From positions 1 through 25,205 of the IMG/VR virus record IMGVR_UViG_3300042563_000746: 25,205 bases of DNA. One strand, written 5' to 3'. Below, in pieces: positions 2,239 to 24,158 of this stretch. Both the position numbers and the translations under genes were made by a program. Origin of the DNA: a virus. The notes beneath the pieces were generated by a model. The model was not told where the DNA came from. It did not search any database and worked only from the letters and a program-made list of their open reading frames with translations. Each line of letters starts with the position of its first letter. Position 1 is the first letter of the stretch.

Positions 2239-3546
2239 ATGTTTATAAGTGAATTATTTGAGGCAGCAGAACCTTCAAATGTATTAGTAATATACCCGGG
2301 TAGGTTTCAACCTTTTCACAAGGGTCATAAAGCAGTATATGATTATCTTGTCAGCCGTTACGGCAGAGATAATGTATTCATAACTACCAGCAATAAAGTT
2401 GCACCACCTCGTAGTCCGTTTACTTTCTCCGACAAGATTCAATTTATGAAATTGACAGGAGTTCCAGTAGATAGAATAATAGAAACTCCTGAACCATATA
2501 AGGCTCAAGAATTAGTAAAAAATTACAATGCTAATACTACTAAATTGATTTTTGCAGTAAGTGAAAAGGATATGGCTGAAGATCCTCGCTTTGCCAAATG
2601 GACAAAGAAAGATGGACAACCAACATACTTTCAACCAATGCCTACTGATACTTCCCATATGACTAATTTAGATCAACATGGTTATATAATGACAGTACCT
2701 ACATTTAATTTTACTGTCTTGGGTCAACCAATGCGTAGTGCAACTGAAGTTAGATCACAGTTTGCAACTAGTGATGAAGACACTAAGAAAGCCCTAATTA
2801 AAGATTTATTTGGATCATATGATGAAGCTGTCTATAACATCATGACTCAAAAATTAACTGAAAGTGAGTATACAGTAAAGGATTTTAAGTTAGCGGTATT
2901 TGAATCAATGCAAACTTACATGCGTTATGTTAAGTCTGCATCAAATACCGCGAAACGAACCCCACGTTACTACCCTTCACGATATGATTCACTATTATAT
3001 GAATCATCAGATGATGCAATAGCACAAGCCAAGCAATTTAGTCAGAAATTTAAAAAGTTTGACCAGCGTGACCTAGTAAAAATTAAAGTAGGAAACTCTA
3101 TTGCTGTATTAAGCACAACATTGGCAAGTGACTACAAAGAGATTGAGCTAGACGGATTTGTTAAACCTAAAAAAATAAGTCTAATTAATTTAGATATTTC
3201 AGGAAAAATTGATAATATTCAATTTGAAGATGGAAGTGTATTCCCTGAACGAGCAGAATTTACTACAGTGCATGGACAGAATATCACTAATACAATCTTT
3301 TTTACTGATGCCCAATCTGCTAGTAAATCATTTACTGGAATATGGATGCTTATTTCACACATGGAATCTCAAGGATGGACAGTTAATAATCAATTAACTG
3401 AAGATGCTGCTGGAGTAGGTGTCATTGCTAGTAAAAGTCAAAAGAATGATCCAAGATACAAGACAAGTTTGACGGTTGATGTTCATCCAGACACTGCAAT
3501 TAAGAATATGAAAGCATTGAAGTTGATTGACAACAAATCTCGTTAA
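2239..3546 (+). CDS. NMNAT/cytidylyltransferase-like protein with capsid-targeting-like N-terminus
   Basis: A 435-residue protein. Residues 15-30 read VLVIYPGRFQPFHKGH, the nucleotidyltransferase signature with HxGH at 27-30, and MRSATEVR (165-172) fits the (I/M)SxTxxR motif that closes the active site in NMN adenylyltransferases and cytidylyltransferases. Such enzymes join a nucleotide to NMN or a related phosphate substrate. About 230 residues follow that I do not recognise. The first residues MFISELFEAA carry LFE followed by Ala, which fits the (L/I)xE cleavage rule of the T4 prohead protease and resembles T4 internal-protein leaders; further LTE and LYE sites occur near residues 206-255. 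It is preceded by a late box. I infer a virion-packaged enzyme acting on NAD-type substrates, but the exact reaction is not decided. Confidence 0.75.
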   Translation: MFISELFEAAEPSNVLVIYPGRFQPFHKGHKAVYDYLVSRYGRDNVFITTSNKVAPPRSPFTFSDKIQFMKLTGVPVDRIIETPEPYKAQELVKNYNANTTKLIFAVSEKDMAEDPRFAKWTKKDGQPTYFQPMPTDTSHMTNLDQHGYIMTVPTFNFTVLGQPMRSATEVRSQFATSDEDTKKALIKDLFGSYDEAVYNIMTQKLTESEYTVKDFKLAVFESMQTYMRYVKSASNTAKRTPRYYPSRYDSLLYESSDDAIAQAKQFSQKFKKFDQRDLVKIKVGNSIAVLSTTLASDYKEIELDGFVKPKKISLINLDISGKIDNIQFEDGSVFPERAEFTTVHGQNITNTIFFTDAQSASKSFTGIWMLISHMESQGWTVNNQLTEDAAGVGVIASKSQKNDPRYKTSLTVDVHPDTAIKNMKALKLIDNKSR

Positions 3547-3547
3547 G

Positions 3548-3555
3548 TATAAATA
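3548..3555 (+). promoter_or_regulatory. T4-type late promoter box TATAAATA
   Basis: An exact consensus box directly after the stop of the NMNAT-like gene and 27 bases before the next start. It would drive late transcription of the 3583, 3996 and 5942 genes. Confidence 0.7.
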
Positions 3556-3582: not shown

Positions 3583-3999
3583 ATGAAGACAACTGATTTT
3601 ATCACCGAATCACATCACATTGTTGATTCTGCCTCTGCAATGCATTCTGATCACGAAATTCAAATGGCAAGAGAAGAGTGCTATCATGCAGCTTCAAATG
3701 CTATTGAACTACATAGAATGCTTAAAAAAGTAAGTGAGCAAAGAGGATTAGAAGCCTGGGCATCAGAGAAGATAACTCTTGCCAATGACTATTTACGCAC
3801 AGTCAAAGAATGGCTTGAATATGAAATGATGAGTGATGTTGAATCACATTTGCCAATTGATCAAGTATTCAGTGAAGATGCAGGAAGTACTGGTAGCAGT
3901 TCAATTGCAACTAGTATGGGTGGTGGTAATGGATTTGCCAATGGTGGTCCTGGAACAATTGCACGTCCTAAGTTAACAAAAAAGAAGATTAAACAATGA
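3583..3999 (+). CDS. Putative virion-internal protein with capsid-targeting-like leader
   Basis: A 138-residue protein. The leader MKTTDFITES closely resembles the T4 capsid-targeting peptide MKTYQEFIAEA, with a predicted prohead-protease cut after ITE (residue 9). A helical, acidic middle (about 20-95) rich in Glu, Ala and His follows, then a Gly/Ser/Asn-rich stretch and a basic end (KLTKKKIKQ). It overlaps the next gene by 4 bases (ATGA), so the two are translationally coupled. The late box at 3548 fits a structural or packaged role. No enzymatic motif is visible. It could alternatively be a prohead core protein. Confidence 0.75.
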   Translation: MKTTDFITESHHIVDSASAMHSDHEIQMAREECYHAASNAIELHRMLKKVSEQRGLEAWASEKITLANDYLRTVKEWLEYEMMSDVESHLPIDQVFSEDAGSTGSSSIATSMGGGNGFANGGPGTIARPKLTKKKIKQ

Positions 4000-5939
4000 A
4001 GTTTCTGAACGAAGGATCCATGTCGGATGTATATTATACATTCCAAGACATTGCAAATAATCCTGACTATTCAGATGCTGATGCTATTGCACAAATCAAG
4101 AATGTAATGATTCATCCTGGTGATGATTCCGAACAATTTGTAGCTAGAAAATTAAAATTGATGCATGATACCATAGCAAAGCATCCTTCTTATAAAAATG
4201 ACCCAATGGGTGTATATGAGGAGATGTTAGATATGATTCGTACTGAGTATCATGATGAAACATATGAAAGCAAAGAAATGAACCCAACTACGCAGACTTT
4301 TTCAGAAGACGATGACACGAATTCGCTTGAACAATGGAAAGCTGATGTAAGAAAACAATATCCACAGCAAGCTAGTCAGATTAAGTTTAAGGGTAAAGGA
4401 TTTGGTGATAGTATTGTCGCTGAAATTCCTGGAAAAGATCAAGCATTTGGAGAATTTAATATGAAAACAGGTGATGCCTGGGTTGCCCCAATGGATGAAG
4501 GTGTGTCAGAGGCATTAGATAAAGAAGGTGATTATCATGTATCCGTTCAAAAGGGAAAATTCTTGCCATCTGATCGCGGCGGCGGTAGTGATGAGAACCT
4601 CAACTATTTGCATGATCTAATGAATATTAGCGGAACTGGTGGCGGTCCTATGTTAGTAACCATCTCCGATCCAAGAATTGCTACAGAAGTTGCGGCTATG
4701 TACGGTGGAACAGTCCTAAAAACTCGCTATGGAACTTATAGAATAGTTCAAAGTAAAGGACAGAATCAAAAAACACCAACACCAGAACCCGAATTGGTAG
4801 GCATGCGTGAGTCAGGTGTGGCGGAAGGTGCAGCACTACCTCCTGAAGTAATTGAGTTGATAAAGAAAATTGCTCAAAGTTCAGCAACGCCAGAACATAA
4901 AAAAGCCACGATTGATGCCTTGGTTGCAAAACACAGTAACCAAGGTGTGGCGGAAGGAAATTATCCTAACTATCCCAAAGAGCCTGATTTGGATCAAGAT
5001 AAACGTGATTTTAAGAGGCAAGAACTACAACATGAGCTAGGTCACGAAAGAAATAACTATGCAGTAGTAATTGACGGTCGTACTTGGAAAGTTTTTGCAG
5101 ATCAACGTAAGGCACAGAACATTGCTAGGAATTTAAAGTCTAGAGGTAAAAATGCATCAGTACAAGAAACAGGAGCTAGCCCCACTTCTGAAAGTATAGA
5201 GGAAGTTAACTCGCCAGGTACTGCAAATAAAAAAGCTTGGGATAAAGGTCATGAAGCTGGTTACACCGGCAATGAAAAATGTCCATGCAAGCCAGGTTCT
5301 GCTGAAGAAAAAGCTTGGAATGCCGGTCATAAGGTTGGGCGGGATGAACGAAGCCATGAAAGACATGGAGTTAAAGAAGGCAATATGAAATCATCTGAAA
5401 ATAATCCAACTGGCCCTAGTTTTGCTGGTGGTAAATTGAAGGGTACTGATTCTGCTGCTCAAGCTAAAAACAAATACGTAGGAGAAGACACAATGCCATC
5501 TGTTAAACTAATGCGTAATATCGCTGAAGGCTTGGTTAGAGTAGATGATGTAGTTCTAAATCGTCCAGTTTACGGTAAACCAACTGATCAAGATCGCAGA
5601 GCAGTATATCGTATGGTTAGAGAATTTGCTGATGCCGGCATTGATTATAATGATGCAGTCATTGAACTTGTTGAATATTTCAAACATGAATTGTCAGAAC
5701 TAGCAGTTGCACCAACTATTCCAGCGGTAGGTGGACAACCAGCTACAACTACAGCACCTACTGGAACACCAAGTAGTACAACTGCAAATACCGCAGCAAA
5801 AACACCAGATACTGTTAGTTCTACTAATGTCGTAAAACCACCAGTAACTCAACAAGGAGTTGATGCTTTAGCACAAATGGTTAAGAATGCTGGATTAAGC
5901 CCCAGTCAGATCAGCAATTTAATGTCAAAGGCAAAATAA
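3996..5939 (+). CDS. Large modular virion protein with repeated (V/I)xEG motifs, possible polyprotein
   Basis: A 647-residue protein beginning MKFLNEGSMSD, a short leader with LNE then Gly that fits T4 prohead-protease specificity. Related tetrapeptides recur at about 170-173 (VSEA), 275-278 (VAEG), 318-321 (VAEG), 459-462 (VKEG) and 509-512 (IAEG), separating segments of very different composition. About 180-255 is a mixed alpha/beta domain; about 355-390 is a small AVVIDGRTWKVFAD domain; about 410-455 has a paired KKAWDKGHEAG and EKAWNAGHKVG repeat flanking CPC; about 515-565 is a helical domain; and a Pro/Thr/Ala-rich linker leads to a helical end. No catalytic motif is recognised. I infer a structural or packaged polyprotein cut during head maturation; the segments could instead be linkers in an intact protein. 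Confidence 0.75.
   Translation: MKFLNEGSMSDVYYTFQDIANNPDYSDADAIAQIKNVMIHPGDDSEQFVARKLKLMHDTIAKHPSYKNDPMGVYEEMLDMIRTEYHDETYESKEMNPTTQTFSEDDDTNSLEQWKADVRKQYPQQASQIKFKGKGFGDSIVAEIPGKDQAFGEFNMKTGDAWVAPMDEGVSEALDKEGDYHVSVQKGKFLPSDRGGGSDENLNYLHDLMNISGTGGGPMLVTISDPRIATEVAAMYGGTVLKTRYGTYRIVQSKGQNQKTPTPEPELVGMRESGVAEGAALPPEVIELIKKIAQSSATPEHKKATIDALVAKHSNQGVAEGNYPNYPKEPDLDQDKRDFKRQELQHELGHERNNYAVVIDGRTWKVFADQRKAQNIARNLKSRGKNASVQETGASPTSESIEEVNSPGTANKKAWDKGHEAGYTGNEKCPCKPGSAEEKAWNAGHKVGRDERSHERHGVKEGNMKSSENNPTGPSFAGGKLKGTDSAAQAKNKYVGEDTMPSVKLMRNIAEGLVRVDDVVLNRPVYGKPTDQDRRAVYRMVREFADAGIDYNDAVIELVEYFKHELSELAVAPTIPAVGGQPATTTAPTGTPSSTTANTAAKTPDTVSSTNVVKPPVTQQGVDALAQMVKNAGLSPSQISNLMSKAK
4815..4957 (+). repeat. 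Pair of identical GC-rich 14-mers encoding GVAEG
   Basis: GGTGTGGCGGAAGG occurs at 4815-4828 and again at 4944-4957, in the same frame and 129 bases apart. Both encode Gly-Val-Ala-Glu-Gly with identical, GC-rich codons in an otherwise AT-rich gene, whereas the related VSEA, VKEG and IAEG sites use other codons. Identity at the DNA level suggests recent copying or recombination and not only protein-level selection. Confidence 0.7.
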
Positions 5940-9909: not shown

Positions 9910-9923
9910 TATTGGAGTATATT

Positions 9924-10526
9924 ATGAAAGAATTCATTCCTACCTACTTGTATATAAAACAACACCGTGTCACTGGGTTAAAATACATAGGAAAAACGAT
10001 TAAAAATCCAATCCACTATAAAGGTAGTGGAAAATATTGGTTGCGGCACTTAAAAAAGCATGGGTATATAGTTGACACTATTTGGTATCAATTATATAAT
10101 GATGCCAAATCACTAACAGAAGCAGCAATAAAATTATCACTGGATAATAATATAGTAGAGTCTATTGAATGGGCTAACCAAAAAGCTGAAAATGGACTAG
10201 ACGGTGCATTACCTGGTGAATTGCATCATATGTTCGGGCATACCGGAAATGCACATCCACGATTTGGAACAACGCATTCAGAAAAAACAAAAAAATTAAT
10301 GAGTATTAATCATGCTAATTTCAAGAAAGAAAATCATCCATTATGGAATATAGGACACACTGATGAAACTAAAGAAAAAATGAAAAGAAATCACGCTGAT
10401 GTTTCAGGAACTAATAATCCTATGTATGGAGTTATTCGCGCCCGCATTGAATGTCCACACTGTGGTGAATCAGTAGCTGATGCTTGGCTGAGCAGGCATA
10501 TTAAAAAGGCCCACTCATGTACATAG
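9924..10526 (+). CDS. GIY-YIG homing endonuclease with NUMOD3 repeats and a zinc finger
   Basis: A 200-residue protein. The N-terminal YLYIKQHRVTGLKYIGKT (residues 8-25) is a divergent GIY-YIG core, followed by YKGSGKYWLRHLKKHG with the expected basic residues. Two HxExTKxxM segments, HSEKTKKLM and HTDETKEKM, are NUMOD3 DNA-binding modules, and the C-terminus has a CPHC-x12-H-x4-H zinc-finger pattern. The domain order is nuclease then DNA binding, as in phage Seg/I-TevI-type enzymes. I chose ATG 9924 because TTGGAG at 9912 is a good ribosome site for it. It overlaps the DNA polymerase start by 10 bases, a position typical of free-standing homing endonucleases that target a neighbouring replication gene. 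Confidence 0.85.
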   Translation: MKEFIPTYLYIKQHRVTGLKYIGKTIKNPIHYKGSGKYWLRHLKKHGYIVDTIWYQLYNDAKSLTEAAIKLSLDNNIVESIEWANQKAENGLDGALPGELHHMFGHTGNAHPRFGTTHSEKTKKLMSINHANFKKENHPLWNIGHTDETKEKMKRNHADVSGTNNPMYGVIRARIECPHCGESVADAWLSRHIKKAHSCT

Positions 10527-15531: not shown

Positions 15532-16113
15532 ATGGCAACTATAATAACAACTAAAGGTGCAACTGGAGCTACTGGTGTACCCGGTCCTAAAGGCCCGCCC
15601 GGAAATACTGGGCCTGCCGGAATTGGACTAAAGGGTGCTACTGGTGCTGGAGCCACTGGTGCTAGAGGGCTACCAGGATCACCAGGTGGTGCTACTGGAG
15701 CTACAAGTATAATTCCTGGAGCTACTGGAGCTACTGGTACACAAGGTCCTATCGGTATTACTGGAGCTACTGGCCTATTAGGTGCTACTGGTGTAATGAC
15801 AGAAACGATATATATTAAGGGCAATGCAGGGTCAACCTTTACACCAAATTATAGTCTGGGATCTATCCAATCGTTGACTGCTAATATGAATTTTACATTA
15901 ACAGTCCCAAGTAACATCCCAAATGGTGGGTCATTGACATTGATCATAACTCAGGATGCTACTGGCTCCAGGCTAATGACAGCAAATACTGCATATAAGT
16001 TTGCAGGTGAAGGATTCAAGACTTTGAGTACCGCTGCAAATTCAATTGACATGATGAATATTTTTCGTGCTAGTACAACATATTATGTTACATTAACAAC
16101 AGGGTACAAATAA
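15532..16113 (+). CDS. Collagen-like tail fibre protein
   Basis: A 193-residue protein. MATIITTKG leads into Gly-X-Y repeats (about residues 9-87), mostly GAT and GPx, with one TSIIPG interruption. Residues about 88-193 form a beta-rich C-terminal domain ([20 protein letters not shown], then [24 protein letters not shown]). Phage collagen-like repeats form rigid trimeric shafts, and the C-terminal domain probably nucleates or caps the trimer. The 16784 protein is a clear paralogue in both N- and C-terminal parts. Its stop TAA shares one base with the next ATG (TAATG), so fibre and adhesin are translationally coupled. It was probably transcribed from the late box at 15501. Confidence 0.85.
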
Positions 16114-16784
16114 TGCCAATCGGTGCAACTAGGTTAGGGTATCGTTTTCTGCCTATCCCACCATCAGATGGAAGTGGTCCTCCGAGGCCACAATACTTTA
16201 ATAGTAGTTTTGAAGCCGGAATAAATGGATGGACTGTTATACCAACTCGTATCATATTAGGTACTACTACTATTTTAGGGTATCCTGTTCCCGGCACTGA
16301 GCCAACTCCCGTACAGGTTGTTACTGCGTCAGGTGGGGGGCCCGCCACTTACCTTTCTGCAATAGAACGGATAGATTTAGCATCTGATGGTGGGACTGCT
16401 TGCCTAAAATTATTTAATAACAATTTGCAGACTAGTGTTGCAGGTGCTACGGTGTATGGCCCAGCAGTATATTCAAATGTAGCAGTAATTGCTGAAGTAG
16501 GAGATTCAATAACATATGAATGGAAAGCAGTCTCTGGTGGTGATGCTTATAGATCGATTGCGTATCTTCTTGAAAAGAACACTGGTAGAATTATTATAAT
16601 GTTCACTGCTGCTGGGTTAAGCGTAGATGCTGCCACTGTTTGGCAAAAACAAACCAGAACTTTTGTCGAAGGAGAAGCAGGTGACTATCACTTTGTATTT
16701 GTAAGTGGATCGCAAGATTCTACCAATGGAAAAATACTTGGTGCTAGACTTTTGATTGACAATGTTGCAATAGTGAAAGCATAA
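16113..16784 (+). CDS. Fibre-tip adhesin candidate with carbohydrate-binding-like beta domain
   Basis: A 223-residue protein. The opening [17 protein letters not shown] matches in pattern the start of the 18038 protein (MAFGAARSGFWFLPTT), suggesting a shared docking peptide. Residues from [16 protein letters not shown] (about 28-43) to the end ([16 protein letters not shown]) have the layout of jelly-roll carbohydrate-binding modules, which open with N-x-x-F-E-x-G-x-x-G-W and end with a strand of the form IDNV. It therefore probably binds a host surface glycan. It is coupled by one-base overlaps to fibre genes on both sides (TAATG). No hydrolase residues are evident. The role comes from position and fold guess. 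Confidence 0.65.
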
Positions 16785-18037
16785 TGGTAACAACTGTAAC
16801 AACAAAAGGATCTACCGGTGCAACTGGAGCCACTGGGCTGAAAGGTCCTGCAGGCGTAAGAGGTAATAATGGGGTTGGATTAAAAGGTGCTACTGGGTTG
16901 TCTGGCTTAACTGGTTCTACTGGTCCGTCTGGCCCTTCTGGTGGACCAACCGGAGCTACAGGAGTAGGTTCAACTGGTGCTACAGGTATACAAGGCAATA
17001 TCGGGTCTACTGGTGCAACAAGTATAATTCCTGGATCAACTGGTGCTACAGGTATACAAGGCAATATCGGGTCTACTGGTGCAACAAGTATAATTCCTGG
17101 ATCAACTGGATCAACTGGCGCAACTGGTGCAACTGGTATCGAAGGTAATATCGGGTCTACTGGTGCAACAAGTATAATTCCTGGCGCAACTGGTGCAACT
17201 GGTATCGAAGGTAATATCGGGGCTACTGGTGCAACAAGTATAATTCCTGGTGCTACCGGTATACAAGGCAATATCGGGTCTACTGGTGCAACAAGTATAA
17301 TTCCTGGTTCAACTGGAGCTACTGGTATTCCAGGATCACCAGGTGGTGCTACTGGTTCTACTGGAATTTCATTCATAACTGCTGGTGTTATTGATGGTAA
17401 TTTGATCATAGAACGAAATCATCTAGGCTTCAGTAATGCAGGAGATCCGGGTGGTACTTACATTAATGCAGGATCAGTAATTGGATCAACTGGTCCTAGC
17501 GGTCGTGAAGTTACTTCTGCTGTATATGTAAATGGTCAACTTGGATTTCATAGGGACGATCTTTCCGAGTTTTGGGTACTAGATCCGACTAATTCAGGCG
17601 AACCAGCTATAATAACAGGCCCAGCCGGGGCTACTGGGGCAACAAGTATTATCCCTGGTGCAACTGGTTCCACTGGTGCTACTGGTAGTGGTGCTACTGG
17701 TGCTACTGGTGTAATGACAGAAATGATATATCGTGTTGGTCCTATCGGTCCAATTACTACCTTTACTCCAAATTATAGTCTAGGTTCTATACAAACAATA
17801 ACTGCTAATGTCAATTTTACACTAGCATTACCAATTAATATGCCTAACGGTGGATCAATGGCATTAATAACAACACAAAGTTCAACTGGCAATAAAGTAA
17901 TGACAGCTAATGCAGGATATAAATTTGCAGGATCAGGATTTAAAACTCTAAGTACTTCAGCAAATGCAATTGATATGTTAAATATTTTTCGGGCCGATAG
18001 TACATACTATGTGGCACTAACATTGAGTTATAGGTAA
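16784..18037 (+). CDS. Long collagen-like tail fibre protein
   Basis: A 417-residue paralogue of the 15532 protein. MVTTVTTKG is followed by Gly-X-Y repeats at about 8-195, dominated by GAT and GST triplets, with five copies of a [14 protein letters not shown]-like unit. Residues about 196-277 form a non-collagenous insert ([14 protein letters not shown], then [21 protein letters not shown]), followed by a second short collagen stretch at 278-309 and a C-terminal domain at 310-417 that matches the 15532 C-terminus almost throughout ([37 protein letters not shown]). It is probably a trimeric fibre shaft with a folding or capping domain. Its stop abuts the next adhesin start with no gap. The repeats make its length prone to change by recombination. 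Confidence 0.87.
16992..17307 (+). repeat. Five near-identical 43-base repeats in collagen-like gene
   Basis: A unit running from AAGGCAATATCGGG to ACAAGTATAATTCCTGG starts at 16992, 17058, 17142, 17208 and 17265. Copies differ at very few positions (C/T in AAGGNAATATC, T/G in GGGTCT or GGGGCT). Distances of 66, 84, 66 and 57 bases are all multiples of three, so the reading frame is kept. The shared ATAATTCCTGG block also occurs in the 15532 gene near 15710. Confidence 0.9.
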
Positions 18038-21673: not shown

Positions 21674-22357
21674 ATGTCATTTAATAAAACAAAAACAGAT
21701 CCTGAATTGGGACTACAAGTACACGAATATCTAGTTAAAATGGGAGTTGAGACTCCCACTAATCCTAATGGATTAAATCGTACTGATAAGATTGAAATCA
21801 TTGAAACTCATATGAAGAAAATCATGGAGACTCTAGGATTAGACTTATCCGATGATAGTTTAACAGAAACTCCAAAGCGTGTTGCTAAAATGTATGTCAA
21901 TGAAATATTTTGGGGGCTTGATTATGAATCATTCCCAAAATGTACAACAGTTGATAACAAGATGAAATACAACGAAATGGTTGTAGAACGAAATGTTAAT
22001 GTTCAAAGCAATTGCGAACATCATTTTGTAATCATTGATGGTCTTGCTACAGTTGGATATGTTCCCAAAGATAAAGTATTGGGCCTAAGTAAAATCAATA
22101 GAATTGTAGAGTATTTTAGTAAGCGTCCTCAAATTCAAGAACGATTGACTGAACAGATTTTCCATACATTACAATTCATTCTAGATACAGAAGATGTTGC
22201 GGTAATGATTGATGCTAGACATTACTGTGTAGCCTCCCGTGGGGTAGAGGATACAGGTAGTTCTACTGTTACTACACGATTGGGTGGTGGATTCAAAACT
22301 GACATGGCCGCCCGTAATGAATTCTATCAAATAGCTAGACAAGGTTGTGCAAGATGA
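21674..22357 (+). CDS. folE: GTP cyclohydrolase I
   Basis: A 227-residue enzyme converting GTP to 7,8-dihydroneopterin triphosphate, the first step of 7-deazaguanine synthesis. TETPKRVAKMY (64-74) is the family N-terminal motif; SNCEHHFVIIDG has C114 and H117, and ARHYCVASRGVED has H183 and C185, so the zinc ligands Cys-His-Cys and the catalytic His are present. GLSKINRIVEYFSKRPQIQERLTEQI is nearly a textbook FolE core. Length matches bacterial enzymes. AAGGAAGG precedes the ATG. The stop overlaps a 47-codon gene by four bases, which in turn overlaps queD, so the three are translationally coupled. In a phage with dpdA this enzyme supplies pterin for DNA modification more likely than for folate. 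Confidence 0.96.
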   Translation: MSFNKTKTDPELGLQVHEYLVKMGVETPTNPNGLNRTDKIEIIETHMKKIMETLGLDLSDDSLTETPKRVAKMYVNEIFWGLDYESFPKCTTVDNKMKYNEMVVERNVNVQSNCEHHFVIIDGLATVGYVPKDKVLGLSKINRIVEYFSKRPQIQERLTEQIFHTLQFILDTEDVAVMIDARHYCVASRGVEDTGSSTVTTRLGGGFKTDMAARNEFYQIARQGCAR

Positions 22358-22497
22358 TTAATATCCTACTTATAATAATTATTATTGCAATTATCATCGC
22401 TATTATTAGATTGACTCCAGTGAGTAAAAAATCTATGTATTGCACTGGTAATTGTGAACAAGGTCGTAAATGTGACTGTAAGCAGGATACATTATGA
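22354..22497 (+). CDS. 47-residue membrane peptide with four-cysteine tail
   Basis: A short gene linked at both ends by ATGA overlaps, to folE at its start and to queD at its stop. The product has one hydrophobic helix (residues about 4-18, nearly all Ile/Leu/Ala), a short basic link, then YCTGNCEQGRKCDC, with four Cys in the pattern C-x3-C-x5-C-x-C that could bind zinc or an iron-sulfur centre. The exact double coupling is strong evidence that it is translated. I do not recognise a function. Possibilities are a metal-binding membrane peptide serving the metal-dependent FolE/QueD/QueE enzymes, or an unrelated exclusion or takeover peptide. Confidence 0.75.
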   Translation: MINILLIIIIIAIIIAIIRLTPVSKKSMYCTGNCEQGRKCDCKQDTL

Positions 22498-22970
22498 AAT
22501 ACCTATCAACTAAAGAGTATTCAAACATTGCCCCAGTAGCATATAGACAATGGCGGGCCGATAGTCATTGCAATAAAATTCACGGATATGCGCTATCATT
22601 TAAGTTTGAATTTGAATGTGATGAACTTGATGTAAGAAACTGGGCAATGGATTATGGTGGTCTTAAACCACTCAAATCCTTCCTTAAAGAACATTTTGAT
22701 CATGTGTTACTATTAGCTCAAGATGATCCTAACTATGCTGATATCAAACGATTAGGTGATCTAGGATTAGCCAAAATAACCGAAGTTGAAAAGACAGGGT
22801 GTGAAGGCTTGGCTGATTACCTTTACAAGTATGTGAATGGAATCTTTCTTCCTGACTATGGTAAATCAGAAGCTGATAGATTGTGGTGTTGCAAAGTAGA
22901 AGTAAGAGAAACTCCTAGCAATATGGCAATGCGTATGGGACATAGAGAAGACAACGAAGAGTTGTTTTAA
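22494..22970 (+). CDS. queD: QueD-like 6-carboxy-tetrahydropterin synthase with altered zinc site
   Basis: A 158-residue T-fold protein, longer than usual QueD (about 120). QueD turns dihydroneopterin triphosphate into 6-carboxy-tetrahydropterin. Retained: the catalytic Cys and its spacing C26-x3-H30-G, the FDH pair (D69, H70) and the VRET segment with E139. Changed: the third zinc His of the usual HGH is Tyr (H30-G-Y32), and the usual AAHR near the N-terminus reads VAYR (Y17), so two of three expected zinc His appear to be Tyr. H25, next to the catalytic Cys, could compensate. An insert of about 25 residues lies at about 80-104. Its place behind folE supports pathway membership, but altered chemistry is possible. 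Confidence 0.8.
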   Translation: MKYLSTKEYSNIAPVAYRQWRADSHCNKIHGYALSFKFEFECDELDVRNWAMDYGGLKPLKSFLKEHFDHVLLLAQDDPNYADIKRLGDLGLAKITEVEKTGCEGLADYLYKYVNGIFLPDYGKSEADRLWCCKVEVRETPSNMAMRMGHREDNEELF

Positions 22971-22971
22971 C

Positions 22972-23000
22972 TTGCATTTCCTATGTAATCATGATATAAT
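22972..23000 (+). promoter_or_regulatory. Sigma70 promoter with long palindrome around the -10 box
   Basis: TTGCAT at 22972-22977, 17-base spacer, TATAAT at 22995-23000. The -10 box lies in the 8-base centre of a perfect 9-bp inverted repeat: TGTAATCAT at 22984-22992 and ATGATTACA at 23001-23009. This looks like an operator for a dimeric repressor. It drives mazG-like, queE and the 24172 gene. Confidence 0.85.
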
Positions 23001-23026
23001 ATGATTACACCACCGTGAGGTACATA

Positions 23027-23299
23027 ATGAATAAACAAACCCAAGAAGTAATGTCAATTCTGGCAGAAGAATGTGCTGAAGTTATTCAAGCTATTTCTAA
23101 GTGCCAACGATTTGGTATTGACAATTTAAAGCCTGGTAAACCAAAAACTAACAGAGAACATCTTGAAGAAGAGATTGGTGATCTATTGGCTATGGTAGAT
23201 ATCCTACATGAATTAGACATTGTTTCATGGACTAATCTTGATGAGGCCAAGGACGCTAAGATTGAAAAATTGAAGAAGTGGTCAACAATTTATGAGTAA
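23027..23299 (+). CDS. MazG-like NTP pyrophosphohydrolase
   Basis: A 90-residue all-alpha NTP-PPase. EECAEVIQAISKCQRFG (E14, E15, E18) and HLEEEIGDLLAMVDIL supply the ExxE and ExxD Mg-binding motifs of the MazG fold. Such enzymes hydrolyse nucleoside triphosphates to monophosphate and pyrophosphate. I chose ATG 23027 because GTGAGG at 23015 is its ribosome site. It overlaps queE by 8 bases. It could clean up non-canonical nucleotides, alter the host nucleotide or alarmone pool, or favour modified DNA synthesis; its coupling to queE hints at the last, without proof. Confidence 0.85.
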   Translation: MNKQTQEVMSILAEECAEVIQAISKCQRFGIDNLKPGKPKTNREHLEEEIGDLLAMVDILHELDIVSWTNLDEAKDAKIEKLKKWSTIYE

Positions 23300-24158
23300 A
23301 ATTAAAGTAAGCGAACTGTTTTATAGTATCCAAGGAGAAGGCCGTTTCATGGGAGTACCAAGTGTATTCCTAAGAACTTTTGGATGCAATTTCACTTGTG
23401 GTGGATTTGGTATGCCTCGCGGTGAATTAAGTCAAGAGCGTATCAAAGTTGCCGCATTAGATGCCTTCGGTCCATACTCTAATTACAAAGAACTACCACT
23501 TGTGAGTACAGGTTGTGACAGTTATGCATCCTGGGATCCTGCATTCAAGCATCTTAGTCCTATGCTTGACACTAACACTATTGCTGATAGCATTTGTGAA
23601 ATGTTGCCCTTCAAGGAGTGGCGTGATGAACATTTAGTTATCACGGGTGGAGAACCATTATTGGGGTGGCAACGGGCTTACCCAGATTTGATTGAGCATC
23701 CAAAGATGAGTGGGCTAAATGAAATTACATTTGAGACTAATGGAACTCAGCCGTTAACTGACGAATTTACCAAGTACCTACAGACATGGAATCAACGCCA
23801 ATATCCGCATGGTCCTGGTGGAGAAATTACATTTTCAGTCAGTCCTAAACTACCCTGTAGTGGTGAGAAATGGGAAGATGCTATCTGTACTGACATTGTA
23901 CGCAGTTATGAAAATATTGGATATGCTTATCTAAAATTTGTAGTTGCTACTGAAGAAGATGCACAAGATGCCTTGAAGGCTACTGCTGAATACAGAGCCG
24001 CAGGGTTTAAAGGTCCTGTTTATCTAATGCCAGTTGGAGGTACATCAGACTCATACTTCATGAATAATCGTTCAGTTGCAGAACTGGCTATGAAAAATGG
24101 ATTAAGATACAGTGCTAGACTTCAGGTCGATCTTTGGAAAAATAACTGGGGTACTTAA
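23292..24158 (+). CDS. queE: QueE 7-carboxy-7-deazaguanine synthase (radical SAM) with unusual Cys spacing
   Basis: A 288-residue enzyme that rearranges 6-carboxy-tetrahydropterin to 7-carboxy-7-deazaguanine (CDG) using SAM and a 4Fe-4S cluster. LFYSIQGEGRFMGVPSVFLRT (the last residue at 29 precedes the cluster) is the QueE signature, TGGEPLL the SAM-binding loop, and FETNGTQ and SVSPKL later family motifs. Cysteines are C32 and C36 (C-x3-C), but the residue at the normal third position is F39. The GCDSYASW segment that normally carries the third Cys appears at C75, so the motif is C-x3-C-x38-C with a long insert. It overlaps mazG-like by 8 bases. The enzyme class is firm from the flanking motifs; whether the distant Cys completes the cluster is inferred. 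Confidence 0.92.
   Translation: MSKIKVSELFYSIQGEGRFMGVPSVFLRTFGCNFTCGGFGMPRGELSQERIKVAALDAFGPYSNYKELPLVSTGCDSYASWDPAFKHLSPMLDTNTIADSICEMLPFKEWRDEHLVITGGEPLLGWQRAYPDLIEHPKMSGLNEITFETNGTQPLTDEFTKYLQTWNQRQYPHGPGGEITFSVSPKLPCSGEKWEDAICTDIVRSYENIGYAYLKFVVATEEDAQDALKATAEYRAAGFKGPVYLMPVGGTSDSYFMNNRSVAELAMKNGLRYSARLQVDLWKNNWGT

Follow-up and report, generated by a model that had tools for sequence, protein, structure and literature searches.

The polyprotein-like open reading frame (ORF) at 3996..5939 (+ strand) of the analysed stretch of viral DNA, a window of 25205 bases, belongs to a group of phage ORFs whose modules are linked by one short sequence (joint), which seems both to let the pieces swap between phages and to release them in the virus particle. 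We consider it likely that these ORFs encode capsid-targeted effector polyproteins of T4-superfamily phages, which are cut by the prohead protease and reassorted via short-homology recombination. A capsid targeting sequence, predicted on the polyprotein itself in many relatives and, in the window, clear only on the coupled upstream gene, would probably direct the polyprotein to the prohead core. A gp21-type S77 prohead protease would cut after (V/I/L/M)xE, chiefly at GVAE↓G joints (the arrow indicating the cut), and the resulting small separate proteins would be packed with the DNA, injected and act in the host. Short-homology recombination between co-infecting phages would swap, duplicate and replace modules in frame. 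Since the joints are one DNA sequence of 14-17 nt in one phase, in-frame module exchange by ordinary recombination is possible.

The ORF of the window encodes 647 amino acids and may start at 3996, in an ATGA overlap with the upstream gene, or at 4020, which was favoured by the ribosome-binding-site score. A first, sequence-only reading had proposed six sites of the form (L/V/I)xE(G/A) in this protein, and exactly six were counted (residues 4 LNEG, 170 VSEA, 275 VAEG, 318 VAEG, 459 VKEG and 509 IAEG). Shuffles of the protein contained 1.31 such sites on average and reached six in 7 of 5000 cases; from the rate in 16 other ORFs of the window, 0.84 sites would be predicted. Two of the sites were indeed identical in DNA, as had been claimed: the exact 14-mer GGTGTGGCGGAAGG was detected, on the + strand only, at 4815-4828 (joint 1, GVAEG, residues 274-278) and, after CAA, at 4944-4957 (joint 2, QGVAEG, residues 317-321). 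Its 13-mer core, with up to 2 mismatches, likewise matched twice in the window, and at least two matches were obtained in 2 of 100 dinucleotide shuffles. The conserved joint DNA is restricted to residues 275 and 318. A diverged form, GGTGTGTCAGAGGCA, encodes GVSEA at residues 169-173 (4500..4514, + strand), and LNEG, VKEG and IAEG are matches at peptide level only, without conserved joint DNA. This applies e.g. for GVKEG (residues 458-462, 5367..5381, + strand), which sequence comparison indicates to be joint-like as peptide only; the homologue in L007 has HGVA at this position, just before the compared stretch stops. The elevated GC content was also observed (0.42 at the site region compared to about 0.35 directly up- and downstream), with other parts of the window reaching 0.47. 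Cutting after E at all six sites would yield residues 1-6, 7-172, 173-277, 278-320, 321-461, 462-511 and 512-647.

Residues 412-452 (5229..5351, + strand) showed a weak similarity to ribosome modulation factor (RMF; Pfam E 0.0094, NCBIfam E 0.0014, both below the curated cut-offs). This RMF-like piece matched no PDB sequence at E up to 1, and its AlphaFold model (mean pLDDT 58.6), as well as that of the whole 647-residue protein (39.4), was too poor for use.

The 17-mer CARGGTGTGGCGGAAGG around GGTGTGGCGGAAGG (peptide GVAEG) matched at least 120 contig stretches of IMG/VR, compared to 7 matches for the reversed 17-mer used as control. The recurrence of the 14-mer at segment joints of related phages, on which the sequence-only reading had staked its claim, was thereby found in more than 100 contig stretches. 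Together with the window and 10 relatives, the 120 matched stretches form the joint set of 131 sequences (window and L001-L130). In this set, all 309 copies of the 14-mer with at most one mismatch are in the phase GGT GTG GCG GAA, read in the longest open frame over each copy. They are spread over 146 ORFs in 128 sequences; such polyprotein-like ORFs bearing joints are referred to as site ORFs. Nine long records (1.92 Mb) contained 21 exact 14-mers, again all in the same phase (19 within called ORFs, 2 in an ORF truncated at the contig end), and no reversed 14-mer. In the first four records examined, GVAEG was confined to one or two ORFs per record. The carriers are large T4-like phages known from environmental DNA alone, several of them jumbo phages.

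Bacterial genomes were considered as a further source of the joint. An 18-mer gave 70 single matches there, with a longest-frame phase distribution of 48/14/8 (48 of 70 in the GVAEG phase), and the matching loci exhibited no homology to the modules at E 1e-6. As these matches are scattered and without module homology, they were taken as chance. When searched by tblastn against the isolates in INPHARED, P0001, L099 and window 3583-3999 gave no match, L124 matched one record over 9% of the query, and window 2239-3546 matched 2 records with less than half of the query covered. L047 and L060 matched mostly cyanophage records, covering at most 16% of the query among the matches listed; for L047 there were 367 matched records of isolated phages. 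Cyanophage ORFs near neck and terminase genes (L179 3671-4954, L180 2954-4468, L181 3959-4948) have short Cys-containing modules in common with the polyproteins, and some are annotated as structural protein. By sequence these ORFs resemble a modular protein of a related kind that lacks the fixed joint.

Six of the 20 long records, including G020, the record of the window relative L004, encode the S77 (gp21-type) prohead protease, and gp23 was found in exactly these six; the window fragment stops short of the head genes. The T4-type portal was present in 7 of the 20, the seventh being G010, whose contig ends inside the portal gene, and S78 protease in none of them. Neither S77 nor gp23 was found in 14 records; three of these, G010, G011 and G018, were compared with G016 and are related to it (98/198, 190/392 and 158/323 proteins in common, respectively, with collinear best matches). 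From the N-terminal region of gp23 in the six records, (H/N/Y)L(A/L/K)E↓(N/T/S) can be proposed as maturation site, and the gene order can be read as placing a gp22-like gene between protease and gp23.

For T4 gp21, cleavage after L/I-X-E has been described (PMC9026906; this and the other papers are cited from excerpts), whereas V predominates at P3 of the joint. Among the 67 one-mismatch joints, P3 was V in 60, M in 6 and A in 1, P1 was E in 65 and K in 2, P2 was A in 58 and P4 was G in 56. The comparison of constraint at P1 and P2 gave p 0.055 for one mismatch and 5.7e-6 when up to two were allowed, a set that includes chance matches. Real joints with 1, 2 and 3 mismatches numbered 67, 61 and 98, compared to averages of 19.7, 37.2 and 119.1 in codon-order permutations; since the latter come near or exceed the real counts at two and three mismatches, the constraint test is diluted by chance matches.

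Many starts of site ORFs resemble capsid targeting sequences, e.g. MRAQEFITE and MKTTDFITE. A strict targeting pattern was matched by 26 of the 94 site ORFs with complete 5' ends, 12 of 644 other genes and 2 of 2958 internal Met positions, and a looser one by 36, 34 and 30, respectively, both patterns having been devised after inspection of these same N-termini. The window ORF matches neither pattern, its best candidate being MKFLNE↓G with an ambiguous start. The upstream gene (3583..3999, + strand), which overlaps the ORF by 4 nt, begins with the capsid-targeting-like MKTTDFITE↓S. N-terminal segments like that of this gene (DHEVQMAR) were detected in joint-bearing ORFs of G012 and G016, and the ORFs with a start of this type contain four GVxE joints in G012 and three in G016. 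In G002, G011 and G016, several unlike proteins per record begin with MRAxEF(I/V)xE, which suggests a large further set of capsid-targeted proteins.

Cleavage by a prohead protease, as put forward in the sequence-only reading, is consistent with S77 and gp23 in the six records, the targeting-like starts and the retained hydrophobic-x-E; a depletion of cleavable motifs inside the modules was not clear ([LI]xE observed/expected 1.09, compared to 1.22 in other genes). Alternatively it might be that an uncut multidomain protein of the polyvalent type acts whole, with the joint serving as flexible linker and recombination site only. LxE motifs inside modules at near-background rates would fit with this, as would the multidomain nature of polyvalent proteins and the N4 virion RNA polymerase, which is packaged unprocessed (PMC5512222). 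Nevertheless we regard it as unlikely, as the one-mismatch joints keep hydrophobic-x-E while P2 and P4 are more variable, and as capsid-targeting-like starts and the S77 protease are present. Cleavage at the joints remains a prediction from sequence that we prefer to an uncut protein.

The conservation of the joint extends to the DNA itself. Because the presence of an exact copy had served to choose loci, one such copy was left out for each locus so chosen, leaving 249 sites, 207 of them GVAE from 87 sequences. Among these 207, GTG and GCG each occurred in 181 and the complete 12-nt GGTGTGGCGGAA in 148, whereas from codon usage elsewhere in the same ORFs GGTGTGGCGGAA would be expected in 0.45% of the sites. 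GCG comprises 6.8% of the Ala codons elsewhere in site ORFs and was kept across four GC classes of the contigs (3/3, 83/89, 68/82 and 27/33). P1' was unconstrained in the 207 sites (G 119, A 24, D 20, E 16, S 11, V 11, N 3, T 3). Any two sites agreed per codon at 0.92, 0.77, 0.78 and 0.83 across loci; 24 targeting-like peptides from nine records used the same codon per residue in 120 of 200 within-record comparisons, which is not a like-for-like control. The conservation spans about -5 to +14 and then stops. As the joint codons are fixed beyond codon usage, protease recognition alone is insufficient to explain the fixed DNA. Ribosome pausing or an internal start was rejected, no conserved start codon being found downstream of the joint. 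Aligned joints with homologous flanks on both sides amounted to 10 distinct pairs only, too few for a substitution test.

Shuffling of modules at the joint is well supported. The sequence-only reading had assumed that segments are swapped by recombination at the short sequences, and near-identical blocks do break at the 14-mer joints. We scored 332 interior ends of DNA blocks common to pairs of site ORFs. Ends inside the joint of both partners accounted for 42 of 58 at an identity of at least 95%, 29 of 51 at 90-95% and 50 of 223 at 80-90%, compared to 14 of 6640 after random placement. The block ends are partly non-independent, and merging nearby ends of one query gave 100 of 271 in joints overall. 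The adjacent module differed in 599 of 625 comparisons of non-clonal homologous module pairs, which are pairs and not independent events. The 146 ORFs comprise 143 distinct module strings, and 525 segments of at least 25 amino acids fell into 320 clusters, 232 of them singletons. Tandem copies of one module cluster were detected in L112, L006, L003 and L008, L003 and L006 being near-identical there.

In the window, the block 4498-4956 is shared with L006 at 98.5% in different surroundings, with its left end at the diverged joint GVSEA and its right end at joint 2, where the block shared with L003 ends, too. L004 resembles the window from 4499 to 4828, i.e. from GVSEA to the end of joint 1, at 97.0% and again from 5216 onward at 98.9%, the intervening modules being replaced. 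On the right, the break at 5216 is close to sites resembling IEE/VSE and has no GVAEG joint. L003 equals the window over 4956 bases up to joint 2 and is of the L006 type thereafter (99.8% over 5124 bases, with the shared block counted in). Within L003 2200-11820, the junction of window type and L006 type falls exactly at the joint. Recombination or chimeric assembly may have produced L003, and the argument stands without it.

Recombination at the joints may be carried out by the general phage machinery. T4 reportedly recombines at microhomologies of typically 6-10 bp (PMC9391042), so that no special enzyme is needed. In the vicinity of site ORFs, a cluster of RecA-family recombinases was found in 10 loci and a gp32-like protein (just below the Pfam cut-off) in 12. 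Further frequent neighbours within 4 kb were ferritin/Dps-like proteins (38 loci), DNA polymerase (44) and UvdE (7). A dedicated site-specific nuclease or recombinase recognizing the joint DNA could account for the kept third codon positions, for conservation beyond codon usage and for its limited extent, and a homing-endonuclease-like ORF (PHROG 655, NUMOD3) adjoins the DNA polymerase gene at window 9912-10526. We nevertheless find such an enzyme quite unlikely in view of the general recombination of T4 and as no site-specific recombinase was recognized by eye in the 22 clusters listed from 765 neighbouring ORFs, with 7 of these clusters, plus one further cluster member, UvdE, checked with Pfam.

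The modules themselves are of varied content. Pfam assigned 18 families to the 55 longest of the 146 site ORFs, including GNAT, ParB_N, the SutA RNA-polymerase-binding domain, NT5C nucleotidase, cytidine deaminase, LysM and GH19. Unlike domains within one polypeptide are thus a property of the group, the window ORF itself showing the one weak RMF-like match. PADLOC gave no match. T4 Ip1-3, which have the leader alone in common, are injected and inhibit type IV restriction enzymes (PMC12373910), and by analogy we infer a similar role for the modules. As structural filler of the head core or scaffold, cut and expelled like T4 gp22 and gp67, the modules would resemble T4 core proteins, which are cut by gp21 into several fragments (PMC9026906), and some similar modules belong to the cyanophage ORFs annotated as structural protein. 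This appears very unlikely, however, considering the open, fast-changing module set, the enzyme-like GNAT, NT5C, deaminase and ParB_N domains and the distinct gp22-like gene read from the gene order. That short repeats merely caused chimeric joins during assembly can practically be dismissed, although all data are metagenome contigs and L003, whose sample also yields the window-type L002, looks like a fusion of window type and L006 type: the conserved core of 14-17 nt is shorter than the usual assembly k-mers, diverged copies also end at joints, the phase is kept in every copy and the window junction at joint 2 recurs in L001.

The closest known systems to the effector polyproteins proposed here are the T4 internal proteins and the polyvalent proteins. 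IPI, IPII, IPIII and Alt of T4 contain a capsid targeting sequence (PMC9026906, PMC3012670, PMC12373910). Common features are a gp21-type protease, diverse bodies behind one type of leader, those of T4 being injected with the DNA, and, as predicted for the group here, a short N-terminal targeting peptide ending in hydrophobic-x-E. In contrast to T4, many modules are present here in one ORF with repeated GVAE↓G joints of fixed DNA, and their cutting, packaging and injection are predictions. Polyvalent proteins of phages and conjugative elements, which also combine many disparate domains in one phage polypeptide, are predicted to be packaged and injected, and DdrB of P1 is processed before packaging (PMC5512222). 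A built-in peptidase domain has been proposed for their processing, whereas here the head protease would act on a standard joint; a joint at DNA level, as observed here, is not described for polyvalent proteins in the excerpts of that paper.

According to excerpts of PMC3029335, conserved boundary sequences cannot be identified at most phage mosaic boundaries. Recombination at short sequences common to modules is a shared feature, but the joints described here are intragenic, coding, in a single phase and several per ORF. Short shared DNA was found at the junctions and identity ended there. The joint represents a clear example of a mosaic junction with a conserved boundary sequence. In the full-text literature searched, no paper on this joint was found and none pairing GVAEG with phage, most subscription papers and all preprints lying outside its scope. 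Repoila 1994 and Arbiol 2010 reportedly deal with T-even internal-protein loci and T4-type mobile regulatory cassettes, where small host-interaction genes are shuffled at conserved flanks, a feature in common with the joints. Those cassettes are said to be whole genes plus regulatory sequence, unlike the in-frame joints in a polyprotein.

A tentative extension is a protein-integron-like cassette system, in which the 14-17 nt are kept by selection both as DNA recombination joint and as head-protease site. If so, T4-like phages would share an open pool of injected effector modules and rebuild their payload combinatorially with the frame intact. Head-protease specificity would be linked directly to module exchange, which can be tested with one protease and one substrate. 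Dividing ORFs at GVAE↓G would provide a sequence handle for finding hundreds of metagenomic phage proteins that are probably packaged in virions and target the host.

The window is, judged by its sequence, the virus record of a myovirus in the T4 superfamily. The DNA polymerase encoded there has matches in phage DNA polymerase families, with Sinorhizobium phage Phosso (49%) and Agrobacterium phage Atu_ph07 (46%) as best isolates. The sequence TATAAATA (3548..3555, + strand) ahead of the gene pair 3583-5939 resembles what we take to be the T4 late promoter motif. ATAAATA occurs on the + strand at 1916, 2211, 3548, 6383, 9842, 15501 and 21601, all seven copies 12-72 nt ahead of an ORF start, and is absent from the - strand of the window. 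These copies are predicted T4-like late promoters of this phage, and the gene pair may accordingly be expressed late. In nine other records, none of 17 polyprotein ORFs had TATAAATA upstream, compared to 1 of 41 ORFs with targeting sequence and 40 of 1866 other ORFs, and in the loci it preceded 4 of 93 site ORFs; being that rare, it is not a general feature of them.

The gene at 2239..3546 (+ strand), nucleotidyltransferase-like according to sequence matches, starts with the capsid-targeting-like MFISELFEA. It matched CTP_transf_like and, weakly, nicotinamide-nucleotide adenylyltransferase, and in 47 loci a relative is situated near a site ORF; an NAD-related enzyme, if packaged, would be of interest. 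Consecutive genes for GTP cyclohydrolase, 6-pyruvoyl tetrahydropterin synthase (PTPS) and a QueE-like protein at 21674-24158 likely belong to a 7-deazaguanine pathway that may serve DNA modification. The tail-fibre genes at 15532-18037 are collagen-like and contain repeated domains.
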